From NCBI RefSeq assembly GCF_000003815.2, contig NW_023365757.1, forward strand, positions 116,751 through 180,750: 64,000 nt of DNA, read 5' to 3'. The notes beneath the pieces are model-generated. The model was not told where the DNA came from and did no database searches. It worked only from the letters and a program-made list of their open reading frames with translations. This stretch comes from Branchiostoma floridae (taxonomy: Eukaryota; Chordata; Leptocardii; Amphioxiformes; Branchiostomatidae). Below are positions 1,241 through 35,800 of this stretch, piece by piece; within the stretch, counting starts at the first letter, position 1; each line of letters starts with the position of its first letter. A program made the position numbers and the translations under genes.

Positions 1241-1339
1241 ATCAGATAACCAATATTCCTTTTCTATTAAGGTCTATCAAAACCTTTACGTTCTCATTCT
1301 TCTCAAGGAGGTTAGAAAGACCGTGTTCTCTTCATGTAC

Positions 1340-1555
1340 TACTGTAAATGCATTTAAGTTCGCGAGGATTTAATGTCGCGGTAGCGGGAAAAGGCCTGAG
1401 ACTTTTCGCGGTAGTTTTAAGTTCGCGGTAGCACCATGCACTGTATAGTCTCTTGCCATGGAAAAATGTTCGCGGAGGTTTTAAATTCGCGGTGAAGCGG
1501 CCACCGCGAAAACCGTGAACATTAATCCACCGCAAAAGTTTTTGCATTTACAGTA
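1340..1555. mobile_element. Foldback MITE, GCGGT family, copy 1
   Basis: Begins TACTGTAAATGCA and ends TGCATTTACAGTA, with an internal string of TTCGCGGT/ACCGCGAA blocks. Two further copies are at 2814-2970 and 58226-58450. It is non-coding and lies just upstream of the P1 promoter. Confidence 0.85.
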
Positions 1556-1590
1556 CTAGTATACTATTTGGTCACTTGGCAAAACATTGG

Positions 1591-1600
1591 GTCACGTGAC
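1591..1600 (+). promoter_or_regulatory. E-box GTCACGTGAC upstream of P1
   Basis: A palindromic CACGTG E-box in the 10-base form used by bHLH-ZIP factors (USF, TFE/MITF type) lies 80 bases before the P1 ATG. The same CACGTGAC core is found at a similar distance before all six paralogues, which argues for function. Confidence 0.6.
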
Positions 1601-1670
1601 AAGGCAACTTCGCCTCAAGTTTCTTCAGACTGTAGGCTTGAAAGGTGTTAAAAACGACGGCCCTAACGCA

Positions 1671-4600
1671 ATGACCGAAAACTCGAATACTCTGCTGCTG
1701 CATGCTGCTAAGAATGGCTCACTTGAAGGCGTTAAAGCGGCATTAGAAGCTGGTAAGTCGGACCAAGTCTGTAGGTATTTTGGTAGTTGGGAGTTGTTCG
1801 AATCGCCTGTTGCTAGTATTAGTAGTAAAGTTGATATAATATCGTTTGTTCCCAAGACTAATTAATCATCCCACATCCTTCTTTCGGTGCACCAAAATCG
1901 TTCTACTCTCCAGGCAGAGGCTGGTTTTTGATGCCTTTCAAAAAAGGTCGGGCTTCCTATTTGTGACCGGGTTTCGTCTTGTTTGGCTCGGCTGGACTCA
2001 ATTTATTTTGACATTTCTTGCCTCAGATCTCCCACTGAGAATCCCCCGGTCTCGCCAAGCCGACCACCGGAACCGTAAACAGCAGGAACATCTGTGCACA
2101 GTACTTTAAATACCGCCTATGTGTATTTTTTCAGACGTACGTAATTTACTTATATTATGCTATTTGCAGTCACATGAACTCACATTTTAATACTACTGTT
2201 TTATCTTAGAAATGGTTTACATTTTGAAACAGAAATGCAGTTGAAACTTCTCTCCAAGTTCAATTTTCTATTAAAGAGCGTTTTTCTAGGGCTTTGAATC
2301 AGTAGACGATTATTCAATTATTCAAATGACATGTTGGGATTATAAATACACCTATGTGAAGTACAGTGCGCTAGTGACACATCTTGATCCTTTCCGTAGC
2401 GATCAGTGTCTGAAAAGGAAAGTCTAGCAAGACTGTTGTGGGCCATAATTTGTATCTTAAAGTTGTACTAGCAAGGTTGATGAAGGCTCATTTGGTACTA
2501 GCGAATCGTGCATCACAAAAACAAACCTGCAGTGCGTGTGTGTGTCTCTTGGGGGTGGGGTGGGGGGTGGGGGGTGGCTGGGATTTCTTACGGCTAGCCG
2601 GCTACCCTCGAATGTGTGTCTCTTCGAAAGAACTCGACGGTCGGACTGTACTGTATTGTATATAATTATACGATTTGGAGTCCTTGCCCTTCGAAACTCC
2701 GAATCGACGGACGGAACCGTTTGGTTTGATCTACCCTCCCTTCGTTGAAAAAAAGAAGTTCTGAACTGCGTAAAATCCACCCCGCTGCTTGGTCATCTGG
2801 ATCTAATTCCATGTACTGTAAATGCAGAATTGTTCGCGGTGGTTTAATTTTTCCATGGCAGTAAGAGACTACAGTGCTTGGTGCTACCGCGAACTTAAAG
2901 CCACCGCGAAAAGTCCATTTTCCCGCTACCGCGAAATTAAATCCCCGCGAACTTAAATGCATTAACAGTATCTGTGGGCCTGAGTTCGATCCCAGGTCGG
3001 CTCGGCTCGGATATGTTGTAACTAATGAAAGGGCTTCTTTCGGAAGGGACGTAAAACTGGGGTCCCGGGCTAAAATGAACTACAGTCAAACCTGCCCGAG
3101 CGACCACCTCTTCTCAGTGACCACCTGGCCATTTCGACCGCTTTTTCTCGGTCCCGATTTATTTTCCCATTGACGTAAGCATTAAGCGACCTTTTCTCAA
3201 CGACCACCTGGCCAACGCGACCGCGACCGGCCCAAATTGGGACCCATAACGACCGCATCATTTTCAAAATTGAGGTTTTCATCGATTTTTGATGATAACT
3301 AGCGCGATTTTGTGCCGAAATCGGCCAGTTTGCGTCGGATTTTGGGGTTAAATTTACAGTTTACAATGTGCGTGATGTGATGTGATGTGATGTGATGTGA
3401 TGCGATGCGATGTGATGTGATGTGATATGATATGATAGACACAAACCGATCAGTCATTCAGTGAGATATCAGTCGTCAGACTACGGTACTACTAGTACTA
3501 TCGGTAATTTTACTATCGGTATTTGTTGGACTTCCACGCAAAATCATATCAAAGTAATGAGATCTCACTTGTGTTATTCAATATCTTATGGATCACCAAA
3601 CGCAGGTGCAGACATTGACTATAAACAGACAGACAGCGATCTTCAGAGCACTGGCACAGCGTTGTTCAGCGCTTCCACCGCTGGACATGTCGACATAGTG
3701 AGACTGCTGCTCCGCCAGGGGGCGTCTGTGGTGGAAAGAATGGGCTCATTTGCCCCCCTTCATGGAGCAGCGTTTGAGGGTAGGTTAAAAAAATATTACA
3801 NNNNNNNNNNNNNNNNNNNNNNNNNNNNNNNNNNNNNNNNNNNNNNNNNNNNNNNNNNNNNNNNNNNNNNNNNNNNNNNNNNNNNNNNNNNNNNNNNNNN
3901 NNNNNNNNNNNNNNNNNNNNNNNNNNNNNNNNNNNNNNNNNNNNNNNNNNNNNNNNNNNNNNNNNNNNNNNNNNNNNNNNNNNNNNNNNNNNNNNNNNNN
4001 NNNNNNNNNNNNNNNNNNNNNNNNNNNNNNNNNNNNNNNNNNNNNNNNNNNNNNNNNNNNNNNNNNNNNNNNNNNNNNNNNNNNNNNNNNNNNNNNNNNN
4101 NNNNNNNNNNNNNNNNNNNNNNNNNNNNNNNNNNNNNNNNNNNNNNNNNNNNNNNNNNNNNNNNNNNNNNNNNNNNNNNNNNNNNNNNNNNNNNNNNNNN
4201 NNNNNNNNNNNNNNNNNNNNNNNNNNNNNNNNNNNNNNNNNNNNNNNNNNNNNNNNNNNNNNNNNNNNNNNNNNNNNNNNNNNNNNNNNNNNNNNNNNNN
4301 NNNNNNNNNNNNNNNNNNNNNNNNNNNNNNNNNNNNNNNNNNNNNNNNNNNNNNNNNNNNNNNNNNNNNNNNNNNNNNNNNNNNNNNNNNNNNNNNNNNN
4401 NNNNNNNNNNNNNNNNNNNNNNNNNNNNNNNNNNNNNNNNNTACCAGGTTTAGATATTTACATGACCCTTCGTCCTGCCAACTTGACTCCTGACCTTTAG
4501 TTTAGGTACTGTGGACCTCAAAACGTTTGCTGTGGTTTCAGTTTCATGGTTTTTCTTATCACCTCTACACCACAAAATCATGACAATGCCTAAGTGTATT

Positions 4601-7600
4601 TCCATTGCATCACTACTGCACTATAGAATTGTTTCAACAGCAAGCTTTAAACAGAGTGGAAATCTCCTTTCCACTTTTGCTCCTATCACGAAATCAGGTT
4701 CCCAAGAAAATCAATGAATCTAAGAATTATCAGACATAATTTGGTGCTTTCAAATTACTTATGAAAATAAACAAAAAATCTCCAGGTACGATACTCTTAA
4801 AAAAGTTAAATATTGTGAAGAAACAATGACCAAAATGTGCTCTCTATATATATATATGGCTTGTACATGGTGAAAGTTTAAAAAATTTCAAACCCTCATT
4901 CACTCCAATTACAAGTAAATATAATGAAAAGCGATCACATATTTGTAAATTTCATTTATTGCAGCATGATTGGCTGTGAAAATATTCATAATGCAGCTAT
5001 AATGCATAACAGTACTAAGTTTGTGCATGGCTCCATTGATAGCCAAACCTGCAGTACACATCCAGGGTGCCAGAGGGAGCTGTTCACACCTACAGTTCCA
5101 CCACTGGCACAGGTACATGTATGCACACAGACCATGTTCGGACATGACTGGATCCGTCTAGACATGTCTTAGCTACAGAGTCAACAAAAAGTGGTCCGAC
5201 CAGAACTGTAATGTCTGACAATGTGATAAGTCACATATGTGCCGAATAAAAACTGCCAATTTCTTGCTTCGATGGCTAATCTCATGTGACATGTGTATGT
5301 TTTAGTCCAAATATAAATACTCCAAATCAATATATCAAATGTCTGCCCCATGGCCATTGCCAATTTTATCATCAAGGAATATCTATGGATGTCGTAATAG
5401 TTTTGAATTTGAAGAACAATACAAATTACTAATCATGTGACCAGCGTTCCCGCCAGGCATACGTCTTTACGTCTTTGGACGCATTTTTTTCTGGAAAGAC
5501 GCACTCGGCTCGGCTGAATGCGTCCATAAAAAAATCTGTAAGAAAGGCTGACCTGTACCACCAGTGTACAAAATGTATCTGGAATCTTTAAAAAAATCTG
5601 TCCTTATTAGAAGGCATCCTACCTTTACAATTTATACTTCAAATTCTTCACTTTCCGGTCATCCCAATAGTCTGGGCATGGGGCGGAGCGCGGCACATTT
5701 TACAACTAGCGGACCCATGTTCGACACACCCAGCCACGCGTCAGTCTGAGCCGTCCGTTGCATATAATGTAATTTTTTGTAGTCCGTGAAATACATCTGA
5801 CAGTCAACATTCTTTAACACTCGAAAAAATCTTATGCAGATTTTATTTTCTGATATTAACATGATACTTACTTGTCCTAGCTCATTTTCACGTATTTGTT
5901 AAAGATTTGTGGGTAATACTAGTATGGAACAAACAAACTGTTCTGCGCGAGTGATGCACATCTCAACAAAAGTTCTCACGCTGTGGGCAGTTGATTGGCA
6001 GTCGGTATCTTTGACAACAAGCCGCCGGCGCCAAGCAGTCTAGATTGGCCACCAGGTCCAAATCCAATCATCTTAATAACCAATCAGCGTTTGATAAATG
6101 TGATGTTATACTCTGTCATTGGTCACCGGGAAAAAACAAAAGTTACCGAGTACTAGCGCACGTGACGTTGTAGCCCCCCGTGTCGTCTGGAAACTTGAGT
6201 TTCTTCCCTAGCTGCTAACAATTTACTATTAAGGTTTCCCCATTTATCCAAGTTTAAAAGACGGTGCGCAGTAAATAAGTGAAGAATCCAAAACTATACA
6301 CTTTATTTCTTATTTACAAAATTTCTTTTATTTCAAAAAGACAAAATTTGCGACAGAAAAGGGGCCGCAATATTGTTGTCAAGCGTCGATCGAGTCGGCT
6401 GTGCACTAGCGTTGGCCTCCGTGGCACATGGCGCGGCACGCCCCCCTCCCCAGACGGACCGTCGATCGCAGCGCCCAGCACGTTGGGACGTCTTTCTGGC
6501 TACTGCTTCAAGGCTACACCGGCACTGATCACTGCCAAAGAGGCAGCAGATCGTCCTCCTTCGAGTAATGTATAANNNNNNNNNNNNNNNNNNNNNNNNN
6601 NNNNNNNNNNNNNNNNNNNNNNNNNNNNNNNNNNNNNNNNNNNNNNNNNNNNNNNNNNNNNNNNNNNNNNNNNNNNNNNNNNNNNNNNNNNNNNNNNNNN
6701 NNNNNNNNNNNNNNNNNNNNNNNNNNNNNNNNNNNNNNNNNNNNNNNNNNNNNNNNNNNNNNNNNNNNNNNNNNNNNNNNNNNNNNNNNNNNNNNNNNNN
6801 NNNNNNNNNNNNNNNNNNNNNNNNNNNNNNNNNNNNNNNNNNNNNNNNNNNNNNNNNNNTATAGACATGTCTGGACAAATAATACCCGGGCCAGATCACG
6901 GAAGGCTGATTCCACTTTTAAATATATATATATACGTATTTTGATGAAGAGGTTGGTCGTCGATAACTGAAAATGGCAGTAAAAGAGGCAACCGACATCC
7001 AATCTCAAGCGCATGATTATCCTCTCAAATTGCAGGAAATTGTGTTCTAGAGGGTTTGAAAATCCAAATTTTCCCGGGGGAGCATGCCCCCGGACCCCCC
7101 TAGAATGCGAGCGCCTGCGGCGCTCGTCTCGCGCCTACGGCGCTCATTACGCCCCTCCCGAATATTTGGACGCATACTTTCAAGAACCTGGCGGGAACGC
7201 TGCATGTGACCTACAGTGTTTATCTAACACCCAGAAGTTTATCAATGTTTGCTTCTGACCGATTTTTTAAATTAGTGCAACCCTCAAAAGAGTAAAAAGG
7301 TTATCAGGCAAAAGAAAATCTAGGTACCAGTACAGTCCAGGTCCAGAGAATCAGGTCCAGGTTCAGGTCTGGACCTGATCCTCTGGACCTGGACTGTACC
7401 GGTACCTGAATTTGAATTATCTGACATTGAAAATTGTGAATGGGCAATACTCAAAATAATGGTTCATTTTAGTTTTTTTTTTTACTACAAAGGATTCTGT
7501 TTCGTGGAGTTTTTATTTTTAAATCCTATTAGAGTCACATTAACAACACTAACTGGCGCTATTTTAGACCAAGTTTGACTGTAGAAGCTTGGTAAAGAAT

Positions 7601-10600
7601 AACTATCAACTCTCCTATACTTAACTCTTGTTAGTTTGTTGGACTGGTAAGCCCTAAAACACATGAACACCTGGCGGTATAATATAATCTGTTCATTTTC
7701 AAATCGGTCCTACATCCGGTCTACTGATTTTTTCAGGTCTGGTTTTTACCGGTTTGTACTGGTCCCCACTCCTTCCCCCATCCCAACAAAATGCAGGTTA
7801 CGGCCTGCACCTTGACCTCTAAAGGCTAAAAGAACAACAGTTGACCTTGACTTGACCAGACAGGCGGATATGTACACCTAACCGTCACCTCTCTCCGTCA
7901 GGTCAACACAATGGGCTTCGTCAAAACCAGGCCAGGTAATTGTTAAAGATAACAGCAGACTTCCAGCTTTACATACCATCAGAAAGAACATTCCTGACAG
8001 AGGCTAGGTACTCATGTTCACCTGAGTAGAGTGAGGAAGTATCCTCACAACATTGGGGACAACTCAAGAGATTTGAACACACTTCAGAACCTGTAAGATC
8101 CTAAGTCAGTTATAACCCAAATCCTCCTTAAAGTTAAAGGTTGAAGAACAACAGTTGACCTTGACTTGACCAGACAGGCGGATATGTACACCTAACGGTC
8201 ACCCTTCTACGTCAGGTCAACACAATGGGCGACGTCAAAACCAGGCCAGGTAATTGTTTAAGATAATTACCGACATCCAGCCTTAACAAAGGGCTCAACA
8301 TAGTGGGAGACTGAAATCACTTAGGGATAGTCCACAATGGGTTAGGAATAGGGGAGGATAGGTTGTCACAATCTGTACATACCATTAGAAAAAAAAGGTG
8401 TACAAGTTACTACAACAAACATGTTTGCAAATCTCAAAAGTCTTCCAAAAGTCTAACATAAGCATTCACTGAAAACACTTAGGGGTAGTCAGTCCACAAT
8501 GAGTCAGGGAAGACAGAACGTCATATTTTGTATACCTTTGGACATAAGAGGCGTACAACTACATGTAACAGTAACAAGCAGGAGACTTGCAAATTCCAAA
8601 AGAATTGCTTAAGTCTAAAATTCCAGTAAGCATTTCTAAAAATGATTCATATAGAGCTACATGTAGACTATGATGCCTTCGAATGATTGATAGAGCTAGC
8701 CAGAAACAGCAAGTATATTGTATATGTATTATATCTACCAAGAGGTATGTTTGCAAATTTCAAAGTCTTCAAAAGTCTTCCAAAAGTCTAACATAAGCAA
8801 TTCTAAAAATGTTTTCGCATAGAGCTAGCCAGCAAATAAATCAGGATCCATCCAGGTGTTCACAATAACAGATGAACATGTATATTGAATCAGACAGGTG
8901 TATTCTACATAATAGTCCTAACTGTTTGACGTCTGACAATATATTAAGCAGAGTTCATCAATCAAAATGCAAAATGTCAAAGGTATTTCAGTCATCTATT
9001 ATCATATCAAAGTGATATGAAAATATTTGACATGAAATTGTAAATTGTTTCAACCTTCATGAAAAACATGAGTTTTTACTCGTAATACTAATAGTAATAC
9101 AAACTCTTCAATCTTCTTCTAAATTTGATTCAGGTGTATCTTCACCTATATCGATAAAGTACATGAAAAAATCTACTCTAGTATACTGTTCTTCTATGGA
9201 GTGCTTTATTAGGAAACTATAATTCAATATAACTTATAAGTATAAAGCCAAAGAAGAGCAAACTTGTAATTCAAGTCTTGTAGAATATTCAACAGAAAGC
9301 GAAGAACTTCAACGAGGCTTGGTTAGCGTGAAGAGCGTCACGTGTGGAAACGCCGCTCCACCCGATACCCGTGGGACTTCCACAATTTACGTAGGCCCTT
9401 TCTCCCTCGAGTGTCGTCCACGGAAAGTCTGACCGGACTTGCCGACACTCGACGGGCGCTAGAAAGAATGGTATTGCCTTCTGTGCACGGAGAATCCCCG
9501 CGAGTGTATGGCACTAGTGGGGGCAGGCATGCGCGTCTATTGTGCGGAGTCTGGTTAGACCATGGGAAACATTCCCAATCAATACAGCTTGGAAACACAA
9601 CGACTACAAGTACACTCCACTTGCTATACTCATAAGGACAGCCTGCTCACCCCTATAACATCATGGTATGGTCCACTGTTAACCATAGGTTGGACCATTA
9701 CAAACAGAAATGGGGGTCGTTTCCAAATTTGTTGCAGTGGTAAGTAGCCTGGGTACCATCCATATTCTACCGGGGCTCCTTACACTTGCTACCCCGGTAG
9801 AAATAGGATGGTACCCAGGCTAGTGGTAAGAGAATTGGACATTTCTAAGATCGCAAGGATAACCTGCCCACCCCTACACCAACATGGCATGATCCATAAC
9901 ATTGAGAACATCAACCACAGGGTTGGACCATTCCAAAACTGAAATGGGGGGGTCATTTTCTAAAAGTGTTGCAGGTGGTAAGAGGAATCGGGACATTTTC
10001 TTAAAATTACCTGGAGAACACAGGGTAGACCTTTGGTCGAGGAAGTTCCTTAAGCCATCCAGGTTGAGAGTATGGTGTGACAACACTGACCTTGTCTTAA
10101 CAAAGAGTACTTAAGTTGAAAGTCAGATCAAGGCAAATCAGTGGGCCAAAGTTCAATTCTAGCAATGTATAGGCAATTGGTCCCAGCGCCGACATGTCAT
10201 TTTGTACTGCATTTGTAATTTCGGATGGTGACGTAAAGCTGGTGTATGAGGGAGCTTCAGGTATGAGCCTCAGTGACAAACCTCTGCACGTAAAAGAGCC
10301 CAACACACTTATCCAGAAGAGTACATGTGACCCGTGTGTTTGGCTAAAACATGCGAGCCATAACGAAGCTGTATTAGACTACTAGTTATAACCGAAAAGC
10401 GTCGTGCTTTGTCCCAAGTCTCAATTTAAACAAAAATACTGAGTGCTAACCTGAAAAAAACGTTTTCAAGTCTTTGGTATGACTCATACCCAGCATCAAA
10501 CTCAGGACCAAATGCAAGGCATACACTCTACTCACTTGGCCATTCCCCAGGTCCAAACCTGTAACTAATCTAAAATTGCTGCCAAGAGGCTCCCTCGGCA

Positions 10601-13600: not shown

Positions 13601-16600
13601 GCCAATATGATTTCCTGGTTGTTGGGATTTGCAATTGTGGATATTTAATGGAGTGAGCAAACAATTAAGATCAAAGAAGAAACAGACATGATGGTCTGTG
13701 TGCTCTTTACCATAAGGCATAGGCCGTTCCTTTTTATTTCCCGTTCTTTGTGGGAAAGGCCGACGTATCTTTGGAATTCGTGGTAAGGCTGCCGAACTTT
13801 GCGCAGTCGACTCCTTGCTTTTGGCATATTATGAAGGGGTTCTATCCACATTAGTGTAAAGCGTTGTATGGACCCCATGCAGACCCTTGGACATGTCAAG
13901 GTTTGTGATATATAAAAAAGTCTCTAGGCACATAGCAAGAGACAAAGGGACACCCTCCTGCAATACTAAACACTGCCATCTTGGCACTATCCCAAGCTTG
14001 ATTGACAGCACCTTGGCACAACATCTTCACATCTACAGTCCTGAGCCCTGACCAAGACAAACAATCACATGGTCTGAAAACTAAACCTCCATTTTCACAG
14101 GAGGTAAGAAGTTTTCTTAGTAACTTTCTCAGCACATAGCAATCATAAGTTCCACGGCCAGGACAAAGTGCCTAGGGTACAGAACTCTTTCATATACGAT
14201 GTCAACGGACATTACAACAAGTCAGTGTAAAAGTTTGATCCACTCTTGTTTTTCTTCCCCTGCATTTCAAGGTTTGTGATATACGTGTATAAAAAGTTTC
14301 TAGAAACATGGTGGGAGACAAAGGGACAGACTCCTGCAATACTAAAGGGGGCCCCAATGCCCTTTTGCGTAGAGCGTAATCGGCCGTTTTAATTCTACGT
14401 AGAACGTTGTCGGACGCTCTAATTTAACGTAGAACGTAATCGGTGCATTTTGCGTAGAGCGGAATCAGCCATTTCAATTCTACGTAAAGCGTTGTATCTA
14501 CCCCGAATTTACCGTAGAACGTAATTGATGAATTGTGCGTGTAGCGTAATCGGACCTGACCAAAAAACCAACACTTTCCCTGAGGTCCCGTCCGTCTTTT
14601 TTTGTTATCCTCCCCTTCTACACAATGGAACAATCTAATCCACTCGTTCCCAGAGCGTTGTACAACACAAGGGAATGATGCCACGGTGCCCTGGACTCGA
14701 GATTGTCTTACCATCGATGACGTTTAAGATGACCATTGGCCGTCGTGGAACATCTTGACCATCTTGCACAGACAACCGCAGGCCTGTCACAGATGGAGAT
14801 TTGAAATCACATGACCCACGAGGCCCTATAGGGTCTAACTAGATTTTTCTTGGCGGGAACATCCTCACTCAAGATGGAGGTCCCGGAGCAGCGCATCATC
14901 CCCATCATCGTGCGGGTGATGGGAAACTCGGGGCCGGTGTTGTCCCAGTACCGGTCGAACATCACCCTGTCAGTTTTGGGAAACGACATGCGTGAGATCC
15001 CGAAGATCTTGGACCAATACCTCGGCCTGAAGGAGGTGGCGGGGAAAGTTGGGCTGAAGTGTTTTGATGTAACCCTGGCCAGATATGACGTTCGGTCTCA
15101 GTCCACGTTCACCATACACACCCAGCAGCAGTTCGATGTGGAAATGGGCATTCTAAAGGATGCGAAAAGTGAACTTGCCGGTAGGTCATCCTTTTTAACT
15201 TTCCATGTGCTTACACTATTTTTGGCCTATTGTATATGCTTCTAGTCTGTATCAAATGATCTGTAAGGACGTGTGTGCGAGCGAGCGCGTGTGTGTGGTA
15301 TGGTCATGTTTTCTTCACTCTAAGACCATATGTGGCATGGCTGACCACATGGGTTGTGACATCGGAGATGATAGACGACCATAGACAGGACAGGCGCCAT
15401 GTCCTCCCCTTACGATCGCTTTGCCTCAAGGAGATGATAAGTTAATTAGTTCAAGACCCGTCAGCTAGGCTAGGAGGCTTTATTTTCCAAGCAGAGGTTA
15501 GGAGAGAGGAGCGAGCCGGTAAAAATCCTGACTACTACACTACTACACACTAATCTTTGCAACTCAACCTCTGCTTGGAGAATAATGAGTCTTCCCTATT
15601 TTTTTTCACGTGTCTTGAATGAACTTTTTGAATTTTCATAAAAAAACATCATCAAATTTTCCGAACTACTTCAAACCAACTGTTCTGCAGAACATTGCTC
15701 TCATGGCGCGTACGATACATAAGAGTCATAAGATAAGACTACATTATGTAGTACATAACAAAAGTTACAGAACTTTGTCCATTTTGTTTCTCCCTCAGTG
15801 ACAGTGAAGGAGAGGAAGGTGTTGCTCACCAACGACAACAGTCGTATTGTGGTGCAGGTTGGCAACTGTTCGCAGCATCAAGGAAGACAAGGTATTCCCA
15901 TTTTTTAAACGTTACAAGATAAAATGTTGTTGATGGATGGCTATAAATCACAGCACGTGAACGCCTTGGTCTTCGGTTTCTAGCGTAGTACCTGTATTAG
16001 TTCTAAACACTTTACATCACTTCAAGTGTAGTGTTAAGGGCTACATTAATATCTTCAAAACTTAAAAATAAAGCCAAATTGAATCTTATCTCGCTGTATA
16101 GAGTCACGTAATCAATGGGCGTGGCGTGTGCGTGGCGAACGCCTTCCACGTGCTTTTGTTTGTGTTCCATGTTTAACGGGTGGTCTCTGACGGGCGCCCA
16201 CAGTCCTGATAAACTGCTTTCCCGTGGTGACTAGAGTAGAGGGACAATTGACAGCCAGAATCCCGACAATTTTGTCAGAAATAAAAGAAAACAACAACGG
16301 CTTGTGGTCTTTAACCATAGACTGTTGCCTTCTAAAACTAGTAAAAGTGAAGTCATTGAAAACAGGGACGTACTGACAGGACGATCGCATATCGAACCCG
16401 CTGGTCGCGTTAAAACCGTAGGCCACATGTCTATATGAATTATGCTTTTGTCTTTGTCTTTTTAATTGACAGTCTTTCGTAATGAGTGTGAAACAGACTG
16501 AAAAAGAAAGAAGTTAACACTGTTCTATGATGTACTTTAACTATATTACTCTTCTGTACCTAGTCTTGTCCAGCAACAAACGGGGTCGAAAGAAGAAAGT

Positions 16601-19600
16601 AAGCACCTTGGAGGATGGCTGTCTTCTTGATGCCATCAAAAACGGCCGCCCCATCGTCAGGAACCAGAGACAGGCGGAAGAGTTTAAGAAGTTAACTGAT
16701 GGTAAGTCGACAATCTATTCATCTATGGCAACCGCGTAACGGTGTACAGCATCTTGATACTGTTTACATCTTGAATAGTGATGATTTAAGACAACAGGTA
16801 AATGTAGTGAATGGTGCGTGAAATTTTTAACGTTTATAGGCGTTTTGTGTGTGTGCAGGGGGGGGGGGTGTTTGGCAATTATGAAAACAAATGTTTCACC
16901 CATGTTTTTTCAGGGCTAGCTGAAATGAATAGCACAGCCAACAACGAACTGCTGGCGAAATGCGGATCCTGCCACCAACCCATCAAACTCCCTACAGATC
17001 GTACCTGGAAAGGACGAGTCAAGTTTTTCAAGCGTGAGTCAAACATTTTCTAAGCTTACTATATTTAAGTATCTACATACATGGTCTATAGATATAACAG
17101 GGGTGTTGGAACAAAACCTATTAGGACCATTGTGGTTTACATTTGGTCATAACACGAACAAGACGTCCATACTCGTAGTCTCGTACTATAATTTCCTAAC
17201 CCAGTGTCAACAATGTTATTGTATACAGTTCACTATGAGAAGTGCAGGGAGCGGCAGAGGTCTTCGGAGAAGGGAAAGCAGCTGATCAGCGACAGCAGGA
17301 ATGCCATGGCCTCCTGGCTCCGGAACGCACCAGCATCCTCCAGTTCCTCCTCCTCCGCTGGTCCAGAGATGCCTTCTCCTGAGTTCCCTGACCTCGACAA
17401 TACGAACATTCCAGACTTAGATACCATGTAAGACCATATTACAAAGCTATGTACATATATGCAACATCACTATTCCTGTACAATTCAGTCTTCTTGCCTT
17501 AACCAATATTATAGAATAAAACATTTGTCTGAAATCTTGTCTTTTTTTCTTCTTTATCCATAGTGGTGTTGGTTATTTGGACGACAGCTTCCCCAATATT
17601 GATGAAGACATTTCCATGGAGTGTCATTCCTGTGAGTCCATTTTAGGGAATGAAGGTGAAGCCAGACAGCGAATGAGTACAAGCGATAGTGAGTCTAATA
17701 TTGATATGAGTAGTTCAGAGGAACAAGAAGAAGACGAATCCCCAACACAGTGTGTTGTAGACATACCAGTGTGTCTTCAAGAGATAGACCCGTTGGCACG
17801 TAAACTGCACGAAGCCCGTCAGGCAGGCCTTGTACCAGATGACCGCATATTCTTTAAGTGGCTCTCGGGCAATCTGGACTACCTGCTCAACAAACAGCAG
17901 TTCGAGTGGGATGAAGATGTCGTCGAGTTTTGTAGATCGATAAAATATCACGGTGGGGAAAGAACACTCAACTTCTTGAGAGGGCCAATGCATCTCGGGC
18001 AAGGTCGTGGTGGCACAAAAGACCCGACGTCCGCTAAAATGAACCTTGGTGGGCCCTCAAGCCATGCTGTTGCCAAAAAGAACGCGGGGTACACCACCAG
18101 AAGTGGAATCCTCCATGACTTGATTCTCGCATTCCATGCGTTAGCTTGTGATCATCCCACAGACGTCATACCCGTGATCGACAATAGCACAGTCAAAGTA
18201 ATCCCTGTCGTGATGCAAGGCGACGGGACATCCCTCAAACCAGCAATCCAGTTCGACCCACTCACAAAGACCAACGTAGGCCTGACCTTTCCCGTCGACT
18301 TAGAGTACGTGAGGGAAAACCAGGAACCTGACCTCAAGGTGCTAGAGGAAAAGATCGTGTCCGAGGCCCACGTAATGCTGTTATACAGCTTGGACGGGAA
18401 CCTCTCCATGCCAGTAGCCGTAGACTACCTTGCGAAGAAAGGGAAGACGGGGGAGGTGATGCAGCAAATGTTTACCAACAGGGTGAGGACAGTCCAGACC
18501 TGCCGCAGGTGTCTTCAAACAGCACAAGTCAGAGAATTAGTTGTCGAGGACGCCCCAGACTGCGAAAGCCACTGTGACGCTTGCCTCACCAACGGCTTTG
18601 TGTGTGAAGAGTGTGAAACACGTGGACATGACGCAATCTACCCGGCAGCTAGGGCATGTTCCAGGTGCATTGAGGAGAAACGACAGTGCCAGAAGATACT
18701 TGTCATGGTTCTAAGCACAGATTGTGAAGAGGGAAACAAGAAAGCCATGAAAGGACTTAGTGAAATCGTCGCTGTAGACCCTTACTTACAACTTCTTGTC
18801 CACATTCCCGACGCAGTACATGTGGGAAAGTCGTTGAAGGGTGGCTTCGCCAACTGGTTCCTGATTGTACAAGGCGTTCGTGTCTGTCTAGCAGTTCTCT
18901 ATATGCTGCGGAAGAGAGGCGACGCAGTCCTAAAAAGCCAACTAAGGAAATTACTGCGTGAGGATGATGTCAGAAATCGAGACCGCATGTCCGTGGAATC
19001 GGTGAGCCGACTCACTCAGCCTGCGGTTATCCAACTGCTGCGTACCACCGGGTGGGTGGTATACACGATCGTACCGGACCTACTGAGAAACCCTGAGACC
19101 AACAGACCAGGGATGTATCCCCACATCGTTGCAGTAACCCCCGGTCCGTTCGGGTTCTACTTGGCGCTGGACTTCAACCCATTAACAACACATTACCGCC
19201 TCATCAAAGTAAGAACACATAATCCAGCAGATGTAGTGGTCATAAAGGACAATTTGAAAGACGCTCATTCGCTGGCGTATATGGATGGTGTAGCATATGT
19301 GTGCGAAGCCACTCAAATCTGTGTTGTTGCGGTGGAAGGAAAGTTGTCCCTGAACATCTCTTCCTTGAAGAAAAAGGCGGATGTGATAGCAGAGTTGGAA
19401 AAACGTGGTCTAAGCTCAAATGGCAGCATGGCGCAGTTAAAGGTTCGCCTAAAGAAGCACCTAGCTGAGGTCTCGACAACATATGGGCCTGATTGTCAGC
19501 ACAGAAAGACAAACCTGAACATCATCGGTGGCGGTCAGATGTCTCCACGGGCCATTTGCTGTTCAGGTACTGACGCACTGATGGTTGGAGAAGACAGAAG

Positions 19601-22600
19601 CCGTACTATTTTACATATCCAGATCGAGAAAGATGGAGTCGGTTTGCTTGGCCACAAGGAAAGTATAACTCCGTGCCCTTCTTCTTGTAGGAACATCGTG
19701 TCAATTTCATCAGGTATGGGTGGCCACATTTACGCCACGTTCCGTGGAGATATGGGTGGTGTGTACAAGCACGACGAAACATGGCATACAATTGCGCTGA
19801 ACAACACGGATGCCTGCACAGAAGCCCACAGTGTCACCTGGTACGGCGTCGGGGAAACACTGGTGGCCTTTACAGACAGCGCCAGCCACCAGGTAAAGGT
19901 CGTAAAGCAAAGCGGTGAGATACAAACACTGGCGGGCAACGGCAAGCCTGGTCTACAGGACGGTACACTGCCGTTTGCAGAATTCCACCAGCCTCGTGGC
20001 ATTTGCAAAGACATGCAATGTCTTCTGGTTGCAGATTCAGCAACTGGCTGTATTCGTATGGTTACAGATGTCGGCGCCGCAGCTCTGTTCCCAGAGAAGG
20101 TCGGTAGGCTGTACAGGGCCTTCGGTATGCATTGTCCACAAGAAAACGCTCCAAACCCATCGACCAACCAAGCCGTACAAGCCGTGAAAGAACTGAACAC
20201 ATTTTTGAAGACCTGCAAAGATGACGTCAATGCCATACGAGGTAAGAACGGCGCAACAAATGGTAGAGAGGGAACAGTTTCCAGCAAGACTCAGGAAAGC
20301 GTCGAAATTTTAGAAGAGGGTCTGGAGAGGTTCCATAACAACTTGATAGCATTAAACAACACGTTTGTTCCACACATGAAGTCTCTACTCACACTGGCAA
20401 CTGAAAACGTACATGCCACCCACCACTTCAGACACCCAACCGCCACTCTGCTGGAGTATGTTCAAGACTTTGGAAATACGATGAACGAAAGTCTCAAACG
20501 AATGGCCTTCTGGAGTGTATATTATCACACACATTCAAAGTCGTATTACCCAGTTGAAGCGGCAAAGATCCACCTGTCTGGACTCCCGCTAATGCGCTCC
20601 AGGAAACCAACACACATGAGAGCACCCGACACTGAAGTCATGAGGCAGTGGGCTGCTGACTTCGGCAAAGCTGTTCGGCAAAGAACAGTACGGCAAGAGA
20701 CCACCATGCATAAGGCTGGGACTCTGCCTCTGACTCTCTACCAACAGAAGATGCCTAACGCCCGGCCTTTGACGGACGCCGTGATATATGCACCCAACGA
20801 TGAAACTGATCCGCCCCGATCAACTCCGGATAATACACCTGCACAGGAGGACGACATGGAAACTCGGGAAGGAACAGATGCGCTATCGGACCCTGGAGAC
20901 GTCCGTTCAGACAGTGAAGACGAAGTCGACAGTGAGAGTGACAGTGATGCGGGAGATACCGTTAGAGGAGAGGAATCTGAAAATCACACGTGGAGATCTA
21001 CATCACTGATGACAAGATCTGGACGAATGGTGGCCGCTAATCGCCGTCTACAAGGTTACTTTTTCTTTTAGCCAGACGACAAAGAAATGCCATTAATCCA
21101 ACACAAGACGTCCATTCAACATACAAACTTGTGACCGTATGTGACGCAAAGAAAGATGTACAGTTAACAATGTGTATATATTCAAATGTTTAAAATTGTG
21201 TCAAATGAGGCATCGAGCTTTTTGCACACGTGGAAGTGAATTCAGCAAAAATCGAACTCGGCAAGTGCCTTCGTTGTTACAGTGAGAACTCGTTCCCTGG
21301 ATATTTTGGACACTGAGCGTGGACTGCTGTCGCTTGTCAGTAACCGAACAATGAACGTTCAAGGTAGCAACCCACGTGCCATGAAGGATGAATAGCCCGG
21401 CGCATTCTAGCCCCACGTGTTTCAAGTCAACAGGTAACATACATCAGTTAAGTTCACTTATCTTCTTCACTACTTGACATATATGTGTTACATACATTTG
21501 ATTCTATTTACAAGTGAGTTTGTACCTATGCGCATGCAACTGAAACAAGCTGTTTATTGATATGAGTGAATTGGGACAGTGGGTTGTTTTTGTATCCACA
21601 TGTTGGGAGAGTTTCTTGCGCGATAAGTTGCGCGATAAGTTGCGCGATAAGCTGCGTTGACCGAAGCCAAGTTTTGGGTTGACAGTATAAAACAGGGATT
21701 GATGCCTGCGACGGTGACATAAATTTTGTGTTGGTGTTGAGATACCAGAACTCCTCTTCGCGTATTCTGCTGTCGGCGATTGAGAGTTTATGTTCGACAT
21801 TTTGCATTAAGTATAATTATAGAACGTATTAGAAGATAGCTAAGGTTTAAACACCGCTTAAACAGCTTTTTACTTCTTAATTTCCCAGAGATTCCTCCTC
21901 TAAGGATCTTCGCTCCCTTTGTCTTGATCCGCTGCTTATGCATATATGGCGTCAAAGTGTTCAGATCATATTGGCGGCTCAGCCCTGTTAATTTGTAGCG
22001 GTCCTTTGGTTATCAACGGAGTGTGATAATCACTTCCCTCCCCCTATTTTCACCAATCTCCTCAATAAGCCACAACCCTACTCTCCAAGCAGAGGTTGAA
22101 TCGCGCCGATATCATGAGTGGAAGTCGGCAAAATTACACGGGCGCCCAACCTCTGCTTGGAGAGTACATAACCCCCCAACTTATATCCTTTGAATCTAAG
22201 TGTAGACAAGCATCTTGTTTCATGGACGGCCGTATTCCTGACCCTCCCCGAATGTTGAACGTCGAGGTAGTTATCACCACCCTACTCGCAACGTTCAAGA
22301 CGATGCTATTGTCACCTCCAGGCCTCATAGAATCACCAGCATTGGCCTAAAAGTCAGGCAGAAAACGATTAAGATTTCCATGATGTGTTTGGGAACTTCG
22401 TAATTTAGCGTAGAGCGTAATGAAGCGTCCAGAATTTAGCGTACTACGTAGACGGCCTCCCGAATTTAGCGTAGAGCGTTGTCGGGACCCCCCCATTGGG
22501 GCCCTCCTTCATGGAAGGCAGCATTTACCTGACATGCATTTTTCATAATGCAAATCCTACTTAGGATCGACAGAAATAGTGGACTTGTTGGTGCAGCATG

Positions 22601-24162
22601 GTGCAACAGTAGACGTACGGGACGGCTGGCAGTTTACACCACTCCAGTATGCATGCAACTACAAAAATGTCGACACAGTCCGGCGACTGATTGAGCTCGG
22701 AGCAAGGCCTGATTTTGTCGACGAATATGCAGTAGCCCATATGCAAGTGTCATATCCTTCACACAGTCTATAGAATCAGCAACTGTTTATGTATATAAAC
22801 AAACATTTACTAGTATATAACTTGACATTGAAATGAAGCTGGAACAATTGGTCTGCTTGTGTTTCTTTCTATCTTTTCTATCTTTCAGCCATTAGTCGTC
22901 GGAAATGTAGACAGTAGTATACGTAGAGGCTTGCCTATTGACTTAAATGAGTTATATCTTCCACTAGCTTGAGAAAATATGGCGGAAACATTGACAATGA
23001 CGAGGGTTTTAAGCTGATACAAGAGGCGAGGAAGACCAAGCTGTTGAGATGCTGCAACCCTAAGTGTGGCAAACCAGGCTACAGGTAGGTTTGCTACTCT
23101 CCAAGCAGAGGTTAGACTCCGGCTGTTTTTTTTCAGTCGTTTTAGTATCGAACTTTCATTTTTGTATTGTATCTTGTACTGTCAAAACCTAACGTGCGTT
23201 TGACTGGCGTACTCCAAGAAAAATGGCAAAATAGAAAGCCCGATAAAAAACGACTAATAACAGCCGGAGCCAAACCTTCGAGAGTAAGGTTTTGCTACTG
23301 GCGGTTCCTCTGCTATTAAACGTTAATACTTCATTTCATGTTATCCGAGTGATAGAATCTGTACACTTTGTAACGCCAAAGATATTGAAAATGAAGTTCA
23401 TTTTGTATTGGAGTGTGAGTTATATANNNNNNNNNNNNNNNNNNNNNNNNNNNNNNNNNNNNNNNNNNNNNNNNNNNNNNNNNNNNNNNNNNNNNNNNNN
23501 NNNNNNNNNNNNNNNNNNNNNNNNNNNNNNNNNNNNNNNNNNNNNNNNNNNNNNNNNNNNNNNNNNNNNNNNNNNNNNNNNNNNNNNNNNNNNNNNNNNN
23601 NNNTAGTATAGCATTACATATTTGACAATTTTGTAAACGATAGATGTACTTATAGTGTAGCATAGCATTAGTTGTTCTGTCTCTCCCACTGACACTGTAA
23701 AGATTCTTTACAGCAACGTTTTATGTAACTACTGCATTTAGCCCATATGGGCAAGGTCATGCAAATAAAGATCGTTGTCATTGTCATTGTCGTTATCTGA
23801 TAAGACCATACCTTGTCATTGGGCATTATGTTCAGACGTTGTTACCATAAGGGTATACGTATAGCCTGCAAAATAGGACTTATCTGAACAGCTGTTGTAC
23901 CTGTCATATCTTCTACAGGTCAACCGGAACCCTGAAGCTGTGTGGCCGGTGCAAGCTGACCCGCTACTGCAGCCGTGACTGTCAGAAACAACACTGGTCT
24001 GTCGGACACAAGAAGTGCTGTGGGCATGACGCGTTCACTGGCAAGCGAGCCGAGTTCTTCCAGCATTGGGCTGACTCACTGGCAGATCATGTTCAAGAAC
24101 ATGGACTCTTTTCAAGTGTACAACATTTAGAACGTTCATTAACGACATATGTTAACTTATAA
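1671..24162 (+). CDS. Ankyrin-repeat/MYND zinc-finger protein, paralogue P1 (five exons, giant intron 2)
   Basis: Exons: 1671-1752, 3606-3779, 22565-22742, 22968-23084, 23919-24162; 795 nt, 264 residues, in frame throughout. Exons 1-3 encode four ankyrin repeats (first half-repeat LLLHAAKNGSLEGVKAALEA; then TALFSASTAGHVDIVRLLL, PLHGAAFEG and the exon-3 repeats). Exon 4 gives the first zinc pair of the MYND finger (CCNPKCGK). Exon 5 gives CGRC, YCSRDC and GHKKCCGH plus a long acidic-amphipathic tail ending TTYVNL. MYND fingers with ankyrin repeats are protein-interaction modules; a target is not predictable. Intron 3 uses a GC donor (22743). Intron 2 is 18.8 kb and contains transposons and a whole nested gene. 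Six first exons and six of each later exon in the window support joining these parts; the alternative is two broken genes. Exon 5 has a two-residue insertion (STGTLKL) relative to the other copies. Confidence 0.78.
2814..2970. mobile_element. Foldback MITE, GCGGT family, copy 2 (short)
   Basis: TACTGTAAATGCAG at the left and ACTTAAATGCATTAACAGTA at the right, with TTCGCGGTGG/CCACCGCGAA arms. It is a shortened version of the 1340-1555 element and lies in P1 intron 1. Confidence 0.8.
3372..3436 (+). repeat. (GTGAT)n microsatellite
   Basis: About a dozen tandem GTGAT/GCGAT pentamers in P1 intron 1, 170 bases before exon 2. Confidence 0.95.
3801..4441. other. Assembly gap (N) in P1 intron 2
   Basis: 641 unknown bases starting 21 bases after the exon-2 donor. 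An exon could hide here, but the exon-3 to exon-5 set at 22565-24162 already completes P1. Confidence 1.
4442..5441. other. Intronic sequence, no gene seen
   Basis: AT-rich DNA with only short open frames of repeat-like composition. No domain, RNA gene or clear inverted repeat was found. Confidence 0.6.
5988..6168. promoter_or_regulatory. CCAAT-box cluster with E-box inside the hAT-like element
   Basis: Five CCAAT motifs in both orientations (GATTGGCAG, GATTGGCC, CCAATCATC, CCAATCAGCG, CATTGGTCACC) fall within about 130 bases, followed by GCACGTGAC. This resembles a promoter, possibly of the element's lost transposase. Confidence 0.4.
6576..6859. other. Assembly gap (N) in the hAT-like element
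   Basis: 284 unknown bases, placed where transposase sequence could lie. Confidence 1.
7322..7408. repeat. Near-perfect hairpin with GGTCCAG repeats
   Basis: The left arm AGGTACCAGTACAGTCCAGG is mirrored by CCTGGACTGTACCGGTACCT, with inner GGTCCAG/CTGGACC units and a very short loop. A single arm of the same family recurs at about 24889-24925. Confidence 0.85.
7409..9744. repeat. Repeat-rich intronic stretch with direct duplications
   Basis: About 140 bases at 7830-7972 (containing GACCAGACAGGCGGATATG) recur at 8143-8285. Phrases TTAGGGATAGTCCACAATG and CTTCCAAAAGTCTAACATAA also recur nearby (8330/8480 and 8440/8780). A GC-richer patch at 9330-9560 has a CACGTG at 9338 but no recognisable coding domain. 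9637-9744 is repeated at 9855-9990. Confidence 0.6.
9745..9822. mobile_element. 78-bp foldback MITE with target duplication
   Basis: Left end TAGCCTGGGTACCATCC and right end GGATGGTACCCAGGCTA are perfect complements. GTGGTAAG flanks both sides (9737-9744 and 9823-9830); reading the last A as shared gives 9 bp. It belongs to the TAGCC...GGCTA group seen repeatedly in this window. Confidence 0.9.
9831..10762. other. Intronic sequence, no gene seen
   Basis: Holds the second unit of the 9637-9744 duplication and a degenerate CACCCACCCCCTCCC/GTTTGTTGTTAT repeat that continues after the next element. No coding signal. Confidence 0.55.
10763..11094. mobile_element. Probable hAT-type MITE
   Basis: AGGGCTCGAAATAC at the left mirrors GTATTTTGAGCCCTG at the right; CAGGGCTCRAAATA is a common hAT terminus. 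The interior repeats ACCTGCA/TGCAGGT. No clear 8-bp duplication could be read, because the element interrupts an older direct repeat. Confidence 0.6.
11095..12944. other. Intronic sequence, no gene seen
   Basis: Unique-looking DNA with no long frame, RNA gene or inverted repeat that I can support. Confidence 0.5.
12945..13335. repeat. Two tandem units of about 195 bp
   Basis: 12945-13138 and 13139-13335 align along their length, sharing ACATCTYTGCCTGTGTTCAC, CATCTTGTTTTCTTTTCC and TTTCTCACCCTCCTTTCTAT. The open frame at 13227-13610 runs out of this repeat and has no recognisable domain. Confidence 0.8.
13515..13528. promoter_or_regulatory. RFX X-box-like palindrome
   Basis: GTTGCCATGGCGAC matches the X-box form GTNRCC-N2-RGYAAC at all but one position. 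It lies 800 bp before the nested transposon-like unit; function unknown. Confidence 0.25.
13895..14346. repeat. Direct repeat flanking the left end of the 8-kb unit
   Basis: 13895-13968 (AAGGTTTGTGATAT ... GACAAAGGGACA ... CTCCTGCAATACTAAA) recurs at 14266-14346, where it stops exactly at the GGGGGCCCC terminus of the next element. The first copy continues into unrelated sequence, so it may show what the insertion site looked like on the left. Confidence 0.65.
14366..14553 (+). repeat. Left subterminal iteron array of the 8-kb unit
   Basis: Seven degenerate direct units of about 27 bp around GCGTAGAGCGTAATCGG or ACGTAGAACGTTGTCGG. Arrays like this next to transposon ends usually bind the transposase. 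Confidence 0.75.
14850..14859 (+). promoter_or_regulatory. E2F-type site before the nested gene
   Basis: TTGGCGGGAA, a canonical E2F/DP core, lies 15 bases before the ATG at 14874. It would couple expression to S phase if used; it could also lie in the 5' untranslated region. Confidence 0.4.
14874..21071 (+). CDS. Nested six-exon gene: CCHC-finger, Cys-cluster, SAP and NHL-repeat protein (transposase-like)
   Basis: Exons: 14874-15180, 15799-15891, 16564-16701, 16914-17033, 17229-17427, 17564-21071; 4365 nt, 1454 residues, all junctions in frame. Visible: basic NKRGRKKK (about 138-145); zinc finger C196-x2-C199 ... H221-x3-C225 split by an intron; Ser-rich and acidic stretches; Cys-rich cluster about 597-662 (CRRC, CDAC, CEEC, CSRC); then D672 (LSTDCEEGNKK) and D702-x2-H705-x2-K708 (PDAVHVGKS), resembling metal-binding strands of DDE/D transposases; a SAP DNA-binding motif about 885-920; an NHL propeller repeat about 1076-1120 (GKPGLQDG, FHQPRGI, LLVADSA, CIRMV); and an acidic Ser/Asp/Glu tail. 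The combination suggests a nuclear DNA-binding protein. Transposase identity is inference from the D-H-K signature and the flanking inverted repeats. Alternative: a host gene captured in the intron. I do not know a named family with this order of domains. Confidence 0.72.
15481..15584. mobile_element. Foldback MITE, CTCCAAGCAGAGG family, in intron 1 of the nested gene
   Basis: TATTTTCCAAGCAGAGGTT at the left mirrors AACCTCTGCTTGGAGAATA at the right. No target duplication is readable. Confidence 0.75.
22079..22166. mobile_element. Foldback MITE, TACTCTCC family (88 bp)
   Basis: TACTCTCCAAGCAGAGGTTG mirrors CAACCTCTGCTTGGAGAGTA. Flanks CACAACCC and CATAACCC differ by one base, consistent with an aged target duplication. 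Inserted in the 3' part of the 8-kb unit. Confidence 0.88.
22406..22485 (+). repeat. Right subterminal iteron array of the 8-kb unit
   Basis: Three units TAGCGTAGAGCGTAAT, TAGCGTACTACGTAGACGG and TAGCGTAGAGCGTTGTCGG, in the same direction as the left array rather than inverted. Confidence 0.75.
23095..23286. mobile_element. Foldback MITE, TACTCTCC family, in P1 intron 4
   Basis: TACTCTCCAAGCAGAGGTTA ... AAACCTTCGAGAGTA, with internal CTCCGGCTG/CAGCCGGAG. It splits the conserved intron start; AGGTTTGC and AGGTTTTGC on the two sides are the duplicated target. Confidence 0.88.
23325..23795 (+). mobile_element. 3' fragment of a non-LTR retrotransposon (with gap 23427-23603)
   Basis: From 23354 one frame reads RICTLCNAKDIENEVHFVLE followed by CELY. 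This is the C-x2-C...H-x4-C motif at the C-terminus of many LINE ORF2 proteins. After the 177-base N gap the sequence ends AATAAAGATCGTTGTCATTGTCA, a typical LINE 3' end with a short tandem tail. Lies in P1 intron 4, same strand. Confidence 0.75.
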
Positions 24163-32802: not shown

Positions 32803-35800
32803 ATGGCATCAACATTTGTAACTCCGAAGGCAACGTTAAACGCGGATGAATATCTGGTGTATGCTGCTGATAACGGATTCTTTGGAGGCGTAAAAGCGGC
32901 TTTGAAAGCAGGTAACACAGATTGGAATTCTTTCTAGGTCTTTCTTATAATTTGATTAAAATTTGGAGAGCGGCCAAAACTGTAAACTGAAATTACTGCC
33001 CGGCCGAAGAACTCTACTGTACTATTCCGAAAGTGTACTGTGCACATGTACTAGAGTCTCTATTCTATTCTGTTCTACTCTAAAAGTGAGTAGACTTGCA
33101 ATTGCGTCATGCAGTCAGGTACGAATTTTGGTTCAAAATAGCAAAAGTCGTGTGTTTCCGTTGTCAAAAGACGATAAATACGACTTTACGACTCTTTAGT
33201 GTGAAATGTTCCTAAACTAGGCTAAAGGTCACTCACAGTGTAGTAGAATTTCGCAAAACAGTGAGAATATTAAAACTGCGTGGAGTTTGTTTACCATACC
33301 ATATGGTTTTATTTAAAACACCATAACACAAAATCTATCCAACCCATTTTGCCGAATTTTGCCATTCATAACCTGGTCTGTGTTAGCCATACATTCCATG
33401 TTCAGCACTTCAGTTTAGTTTGGGCAAGGAGGGGTAACATTCTCATCGACAGTCTAGACCTAATATTTTGTAATTTCTTGGCCTAATTCTCCCACCAACT
33501 ACCCATCGGAACTGTTGATAAACCAGTATCTGTGCACAGCACTGTTAGTACCTGTAGATAGTCTTTTTTCCGGCTCCTAGGGTCTCCTAGTACTAGTTGC
33601 AGTTACGCCACAGAAGTAGTGTTGTTTTGTTCTTTTCATATTTAGTTTTCAATTGTTGTTTACATTTTGATCAGAAAAAGAAAATACAGAAACTATATTT
33701 CATACAATCATTTTGAAAACAGGGATTTAGACGTGTAGATGATAATTAAAATGTAAATGAACAGATAAAGGGTCATAAAGACTTGCACAGAAGTGTGAAG
33801 TTCAGTGTAGCAGTGACACCCTTTGATCTTTTTCATGCTACGTGATCATTTGCATAAGATCTCGGGCTGAAAAAGAAACCATATGTGTGAATGGCTGTGT
33901 GCAGGGCCTGGCTGTGTGGGACCATTGCTGTCGTAAATGGACTGTTCCAAACAACGACAGGGAGGGATGGAAGAGGTGCAAAGTCAAATGTTGTGCCTAC
34001 CCTATAGTTTCCAGTCTAAATTGCTCAATCCCTGCCTAACACTATTTTACCGGCTTATCTTACCTAAGTTCCCAATCCGAAATGCTTGAACTCTACCCCC
34101 TTCCAGTCCATCCTCTCCCGTCCCACACCCCTCTGTCGTTATCTTTTCGAACAGCCCAATTGCAGTGACAACTATTCCCAGGAGTTTCATTCACAAATTG
34201 AATTGTAAACTAGTGTCGATCTCTATTGTCATGTGTATATCTTTGCACTTGTCCATTTTGATTCGATTACATGAGTGACATCCTCTAAGAACCCAAGACT
34301 GATGTGAGCGTGTGAATAAAAAGTTTGGCAAAAAAAGAGTTGCCGCACGCCAGAGCCAGCAAAAGACTGTGTCAACACAGGCTTGCGACCTAATCTCCAA
34401 GCAGATCATACGGTAGCATAATATTATCAAAAGCTAGCAGAAGAGTGAAGCCGACCTAGGATTGTTTATGCGACCGGTGCCCGTCTGACTCCCTTTGGCC
34501 GGCCAAGGGGGTTGAAAAAGAAATTTTCAACCTCCTTGGGCCGGGTATACTCCTTGGTCAGCTTTGATACTATCTTATGGCAACGTAGGATCTGCTTACT
34601 CTCCAAGCAGAGGTTAGGCTCCGGCTGTTTTTTTAACGTCTTTTTTTTATATCTTACTGTGTCAAAACGCTGGCGTACTTCAAGAAAAATGACAAAATAG
34701 AAAGCCTGATAAAACGACTAAAAAACGTTAAAAAGACAGCCGGAGCCTAACCTCTGCTTGGAGAGTAGGATCTGCTTTGGGATTATTGAGCCCCATGGAG
34801 TCTGGTAGAGACTAGTGATAGGTTTACTAGACGTTGTATATGAACTACATTCTTTGTACTCATGATGACATCAATGAACAGCGAAAATACTTTCCTTTGA
34901 ACTTCATTGGAACACATTCAACTTTGACTTCCTTGCCACCATACCTATGTCAATATGAAATCTCACTTGTGTAATTCTAAATCGTGGTTCACAAAATGCA
35001 TACAGGTGCAGATATTGACTTTGATACGCGGCACTGTGAGATCTCACCCGCCATCATGGCCATACCACCCTGTACGGCACTGTACGCTGCTTGTGTCAAG
35101 GGGTATGTGGACATAGTTAGACTGCTGCTCCGCAAGGGGGCGTCTATGGTGAAGAGAACAGCGCAGTGTCTCGTTCCCCTTCATGCAGCAGCGGCAGAAG
35201 GTAGGTCAATTCAAATCCATGGCGGTTTAAATCTCATTCAGTCGTTGTCAAAACAAATGCTTGTCTGTGAAGATAACATAATTGACAATCGGAGCTACAA
35301 AATATAACTTAAAAAGTAGATATAACTTTTAATTGCGAACAGTTCACGCCTTCACAAAAGGGAGATGATAAGTATATAACGTTAGGCTAGGCTCAGTAAC
35401 GTATGACACGTATATCAAGGAATGCCGTTAAAATACTACTTAAATACATGTACCTTGTTTGCAAGTAAAGTTACACAAAGTCATGTGCATTGCATTATAG
35501 TATTCTTTCGTGAAAGGCAACGTTTACAACTCTCCAAGCAGAGATTTTGACAATACAAGATACTACTAATACAAAATAGAAAGCCCCCCAGAACGACTAA
35601 AGAAACATTGAAAAACGGCCGGAGACTAACCTCTGCTTGGAGAGTAAACGTTTACATGATATGCATTCTTTCTGGCAAAACAGTTACTAAAGCATGATTT
35701 TGAACCATATCCAGTTGCTTGAGTAGTAGTTTTTTGTGAGTACCTTATTACCTAGTGTGTATCTTATTACCTGGAGGCCTAGTCTGTAGCCTGATTAAAT

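Follow-up and report, generated by a model that had tools for sequence, protein, structure and literature searches.

The 64,000-nucleotide stretch of the Branchiostoma floridae genome analysed here (the window; contig NW_023365757.1, positions 116,751 to 180,750 of the forward strand) carries a DNA transposon that spans positions 14347–22506. It is strongly supported that this unit belongs to a cut-and-paste transposon family of the terminal inverted repeat (TIR) type. Its single spliced gene is considered, with good confidence, to encode the transposase, which would act by the mechanism proposed below. Among DDE transposons, the family probably represents a new lineage at the superfamily level.

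The element is bounded by 13-bp TIRs, GGGGGCCCCAATG on the left (14347–14359, + strand) and CATTGGGGCCCTC on the right (22494–22506, − strand). The termini read GAGGG..CCCTC, with GA..TC outermost, and the commonest left form among the fetched copies is GAGGGCCCCAATG. The genome (513 Mb in 431 contigs) was searched with both ends, allowing up to three mismatches. The left end (30 bp) gave 124 matches and the right end (29 bp) 115, versus none for either reversed-pattern control. The bare 11-mer GGGCCCCAATG occurs about twice as often as its backwards control (159 versus 78 matches). From 235 first-look candidates, 40 matches were scored and 20 copies fetched, one of which (L039) has no end pair and contains a run of N. 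The 19 other fetched loci, the window copy and two gene-bearing elements, named C3 and C8 after the labels of the contigs on which they lie, provide 22 end pairs. Exact 6-bp target duplications lie directly outside the ends in 20 of these. None of the 22 reaches 7 bp, and none matches when either flank is shifted by one position. The two pairs without a duplication are those of L046 (1 of 6 bases matching) and of the window copy (2 of 6). The target is roughly nTnnAT, as the 22 left-flank hexamers have T at position 2 in 16 cases, A at position 5 in 17 and T at position 6 in 14. Chance inverted ends are ruled out by the duplications and by the end counts with empty controls, and Helitrons or other duplication-free element types by the 6-bp duplications.

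Short copies of 0.6–3.6 kb make up 18 of the 20 duplicated pairs. Their left ends have a median pairwise identity of 96% (maximum 99%). They are regarded as non-autonomous, since their interiors give no match to the gene-bearing elements at an E-value of 1e-5. A second numerous end subfamily, GGGGGCCCCAAAGCCCTTTTCCG, closest to the end of the C3 element, accounts for many of the listed left-end matches with three mismatches, and the matching right ends are present among the right-end matches. At L046, positions 553–8507 are delimited by a left end of the common type and a C8-like right end, CATGTAGACCCTC; these are possibly two neighbouring elements.

Both ends of the element carry subterminal iterons. 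The 21-nt unit is present in nine direct-repeat copies in the window element, six on the left and three on the right, and a second scan added one left unit and one overlapping reverse match. The left array of CGTAGAGCGTAATCGG-like units (14363–14553, + strand) thus comprises six or seven units with a spacing of about 30/25 bp, and the three right units (22404–22485) lie on the same strand as the left ones. In all ten elements scanned, CGTAGAGCGTA-like units are found at 22, 52, 82–83, 137–138 and 167–168 from the left end and at about 36 from the right end, with additional units in most. The spacing is closely similar in the three gene-bearing elements. Nearly all iterons point in the same direction at both ends; of seven reverse matches, all but one overlap a forward unit, and the exception, in C3, occupies the site expected for a forward unit. 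The arrangement is unusual, and this co-orientation confers on the element a polarity beyond that of its short inverted ends. The sequence-only reading had described a DNA transposon with short inverted ends and subterminal iteron arrays, to be sought elsewhere in the genome by its ends. All of this was borne out by the numerous copies, the exact duplications and the full-length relatives at other loci, the right boundary alone (placed at 22505) being one base short.

The window copy itself is rather probably not one intact insertion, but a chimera of two insertions, formed by recombination of two copies, or an assembly join. Its flanking bases, ACTAAA on the left and CTTCAT on the right, do not form a duplication. 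On C17, a relative of the left flank extends beyond the junction, and the sequence that it enters there is missing from the right flank. In a relative of the right flank, also on C17 and 95% identical, CTTCAT is preceded by other sequence. The identity to the C3 element is patchy, with 93.7% over 17685–21644 and 67–76% over the matched stretches of 5′ exons and introns. The unmatched flanks, their relatives and this patchiness together suggest such a chimera or join. Both ends and the reading frame of the window copy are nevertheless intact, and the question touches this one copy and not the family. A further left end, 98% identical, is found at C199:25343 before a run of N.

The gene consists of six exons separated by GT..AG introns and encodes 1454 residues, as the sequence-only reading had it. 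All exons are on the + strand (exon 1, 14874–15180; exon 2, 15799–15891; exon 3, 16564–16701; exon 4, 16914–17033; exon 5, 17229–17427; exon 6, 17564–21071), and all six have recognisable counterparts in both C3 and C8. Exons 4 and 5 together encode a CCHC finger (CGSCHQ...LHYEKC), which is probably a DNA-binding domain. Exon 6, with 1168 whole codons and the stop, encodes the proposed split RNase H domain, a Cys cluster, a SAP domain, an NHL-repeat region and the C-terminal part. A second, hidden gene was considered and rejected, as the conserved open frames between elements correspond to the same exons, to their antisense or to the end repeats. Two cross-strand matches that link the window and C8 elements, 28 and 43 residues long, are taken as chance.

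Further copies of the gene were sought in the genome with exon 6 (40 of 52 candidates scored, 38 matches) and with the C8 protein (45 of 45 scored, 44 matches). The exon-6 search found three copies open over nearly the full query, in the window, in C3 (93%) and in C8 (59%), and the C8-protein search recovered the same three. Each lies within element ends, and no intact copy was found outside such elements among the matches of either search. The C3 element (9354 bp, ends GAGGGCCCCAAAG) and the C8 element (7803 bp, ends GAGGGTCTGCATG) both have an open exon-6 frame and perfect target duplications, TTAGAA and CTTAAT, respectively. The 35 other exon-6 matches are short or broken; two are on C10 and the remaining 33 on C6, in the interval 19.5–28.1 Mb. 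Taken piece by piece, they look like the two lineages already known and add no depth. This region of C6 may be repeat-rich or low in recombination.

The core protein of the window copy is 93% identical to that of C3 and 62% identical to that of C8. Over 215 bp, the C8 left end shares 66–69% identity with the left ends of the 18 short copies. Since both its ends and its core protein differ, the gene has diverged along with the ends, which is the pattern to be expected if a transposase and the sites it binds evolve together, and the gene is therefore most likely the transposase gene. The coding sequence looks to be under constraint, with a core dN/dS of 0.285 between the window and C3 copies; between window and C8, pN is 0.24 and pS 0.84 (saturated).

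Among the stretches that are invariant across the three proteins are QGDGT, VGLTFPVD, STDCEEGNK, IPDAVHVGK and TLATEN. The protein can be read in the order of the P element transposase. In that enzyme the catalytic residues are D230, D303 and E531, a [C/D]xxH motif lies at D339, and residues 339–528 form an insertion domain (PMC8230255). The first catalytic residue would be Asp506 (QGDGTSLKPAIQFD, 18222–18224), which falls within a weak match to the Pfam family PF21787 (TNP-like RNase H, N-terminal). The second would be Asp672 in STDCEEGNK (18720–18722), placed by eye at the position of D303. It is followed by the DxxH motif DAVH (Asp702 and His705, 18810–18821) and then VGK. The third would be Glu1233 (TLATENVHATHH, 20403–20405), which is invariant in the three proteins and assigned by eye. 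All four features are on the + strand. PF21787 was matched by five pieces of the window protein (E 0.0072–0.12) and by one piece of the C3 protein (E 0.0076), all below threshold. The matches fall within positions 25–114 of the 137 of the model and cover the proposed first Asp.

Several results weigh against this assignment, and the missing target duplication of the window copy weighs against the transposon reading as a whole. The best PF21787 score, 17.1 bits, is below the curated cut-off of 24.6, and the whole untrimmed protein of 1454 residues is not matched. Seven pieces of the C8 protein over the same part give no PF21787 match; apart from SAP, the families that they do match are unrelated and the matches weak. 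Two of the three acidic residues, the second and the third, were picked by eye. The C-terminal part has no Pfam match other than a meaningless one to a lysis protein (E 0.022), and a profile search of the PDB at E-values up to 10 returned no transposase. Profile comparisons with two P-like proteins of the same genome, found with PF21787, were not significant. When the Cys cluster was included, the scores were 3.8 and −1.3 bits; its removal gave −0.6 and −1.8 bits, values that 314 and 1284 of 2000 shuffles also reached. The assignment to the RNase H fold is accordingly put no higher than probable, given the sub-threshold PF21787 scores, the silent C8 protein and these non-significant comparisons; the fold evidence is moderate. 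The two P-like proteins are P/THAP9-like open frames at L065 (C19:10311000-10313600) and L066 (C11:17075000-17077600), with PF21787 E-values of 2.2e-20 and 3.4e-19 and the motifs WDEMKIKS and FDEMKVKS, and DVPHLMKTTRNN and DVPHLLKTTRNN. No relative was confirmed among 104 pattern matches in viral contigs and 80 in prokaryotic genomes.

The other modules follow in the order given by the sequence-only reading: CCHC finger, Cys cluster, D-x2-H-x2-K, SAP and NHL. The Cys cluster (18501–18689, + strand) separates the proposed first Asp from the second. It probably binds zinc, as suggested by sub-threshold matches to zinc-type Pfam models (E 0.02 at best). For the SAP domain, a DNA-binding module (Pfam PF02037; 19371–19463, + strand), the whole window protein reached 20.6 bits and a piece of it 24.1; the core of the C8 protein reached 26.0 and a piece of that protein 27.7. 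The E-values range from 3.4e-4 to 2e-6. Three of the four sequences thus pass the cut-off of 23.9 bits. The NHL-repeat region (19833–20063, + strand; borders approximate, from PDB sequence matches) matches as a profile PDB entry 6g7w (NHLRC2), with a whole-sequence E-value of 1.2e-9 and 2e-4 for the best single stretch. SOQ1 was also matched, and the Pfam NHL model gave an E-value of 0.34, below its cut-off.

Four propeller blades can be proposed by eye after the SAP domain, from about 19540 to 20080. Two further blades before it, with which the propeller would be six-bladed and interrupted by SAP, are not supported. With a profile of the post-SAP blades they scored −0.2 and −1.0 bits, values equalled by 69 and 216 of 500 shuffles, and a PDB search with the pre-SAP stretch returned no match. 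The earlier suggestion that SAP sits between propeller-like segments is therefore unsupported. A complete propeller is inferred at most, because four blades were recognised by eye and the pre-SAP blades failed the profile test. Should Glu1233 be catalytic, the position filled in the P element by the GTP-binding insertion domain is taken here by SAP and NHL.

The following mechanism is proposed. The N-terminal zinc finger would bind the iterons. Cleavage at the GAGGG ends would be carried out by an RNase H core of the D-D-E type that belongs to the DxxH group (Asp506, Asp672, DxxH 702 and Glu1233), and the ends would then be joined to target strands staggered by 6 bp, with a preference for nTnnAT. 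This core would be interrupted twice: the Cys cluster would separate the first two Asp, and the SAP domain and NHL propeller would lie between DxxH and the last Glu. During synapsis, SAP and propeller would probably hold the DNA of the ends or of the target, or a chromatin partner. The short copies that retain only the ends (0.6–3.6 kb) would be moved in trans.

The element may instead be a divergent P, Kolobok, Dada or MuDR transposon, or a family already listed in Repbase, to which SAP and NHL were added; this is a possible but rather doubtful alternative. The DxxH signature is reported for P, Kolobok, hAT, MuDR and Dada (PMC3706591, PMC8230255, PMC9587614). The sub-threshold PF21787 match over the proposed first Asp hints at P and THAP9. 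The D-D-DxxH order, the large domain between DxxH and Glu and the short inverted ends are also shared with P. The duplications are, however, 6 bp long and variable in sequence, versus the 8 bp described for P (PMC7776569), and the element has a Cys cluster between the first two Asp. No THAP domain was matched in the 1454-residue protein by Pfam at E-values up to 10, a range in which the HMMER filters drop most matches above 0.1. The P-type GTP-binding domain likewise had no Pfam match, its interval being that which carries SAP and NHL.

Kolobok elements are described with 5′-RR and YY-3′ termini, and in some lineages the first Asp is followed by a zinc motif (PMC9587614). Both recall the present element, as does DxxH, whereas the TTAA duplications given in the same account do not. 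The words SAP and NHL do not occur in the main text of that paper. Dada resembles the element by its 6–7 bp duplications, DxxH, zinc motifs and large multi-exon protein, of 1402 residues in one case (PMC3706591). A family of about 9.2 kb, Dada-1_BF, is listed from B. floridae in the same source. In contrast to the element, Dada-U6 and Dada-U1 are described as having no inverted ends, and those Dada families whose ends are defined insert into small RNA genes. The first two Asp are 68 residues apart in Dada-U6_DR versus 166 in the element, and Dada has a C-terminal CCHC finger, none being found after the NHL region here. No tRNA gene was detected by ARAGORN in 20 loci and no Rfam match in 19; L059 does not include the left flank of C3. 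MuDR shares a C/DxxH motif, and its duplication range of 4–10 bp includes 6 (PMC10045372), so that it is compatible by this feature. No MULE/MuDR-type domain was matched by Pfam in the protein or its pieces at E-values up to 10. hAT differs by its duplications of about 8 bp (PMC3706591), and IS3EU by its TA..TA termini (PMC10045372) versus GA..TC. A more specific proposal is that of a new DxxH-group DDE superfamily, marked by 6-bp duplications, co-directed iterons and a SAP domain and NHL propeller in cis that replace the GTP-binding domain of P; it is put forward tentatively, as a nearly even call. No SAP or NHL transposase is reported in the titles and abstract beginnings of the literature found.

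A β-propeller protein, RAG2, works with the RNase H transposase RAG1 in RAG and ProtoRAG. The RAG2 propeller is a separate protein of the kelch type, whereas the NHL-type region of the element lies in the same chain as the proposed transposase; no homology is claimed. If the proposed architecture is true, the element would be a single-chain counterpart to the RAG1–RAG2 arrangement in a lancelet genome. Insertion domains are described as varying greatly between transposases and as often containing residues needed for transposition, with roles in hairpin formation in Tn5, target joining in Hermes and GTP binding in P (PMC8230255). A propeller with SAP at this place would, if confirmed, be another solution. 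The full-length copies with clean target duplications make the family directly testable.

The sequence-only reading had left the choice between a transposase fused to a propeller and a host gene captured with transposon ends. The second would mean that a host SAP/NHL gene was captured once, as cargo, by a non-autonomous element, the ends of which are recognised by an unrelated transposase encoded elsewhere. This is improbable. The three copies with intact exon 6, versus more than 100 matches for each end, would suit it, as would the weakness of the RNase H assignment. Yet gene and ends occur together in two families with different TIRs and 62% protein identity, which a single capture followed by passive carriage explains poorly. 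All intact copies found are inside elements, and the motifs fit a DxxH transposase. The fusion of a transposase with a propeller is thus favoured, though short of proof, its RNase H part resting on motifs and a sub-threshold Pfam match.

The element had also been placed inside an intron. An ankyrin-coding stretch at about 22.56 kb on the + strand is consistent with this position; the upstream exon was not located. Ankyrin-like stretches are found in the window at 22560–22772, 1683, 28494 and 52912, and the flank bearing such a stretch recurs many times on C199 and C7, so that the element seems to sit in an array of duplicated ankyrin genes. The window also contains a short inverted-repeat element with ends like CCAAGCAGAGGTTNGG (10 matches versus none in shuffles), at 15480–15585, 22079–22166, 34597–34768, 45750–46058 and other positions; two of its copies lie inside the transposon.

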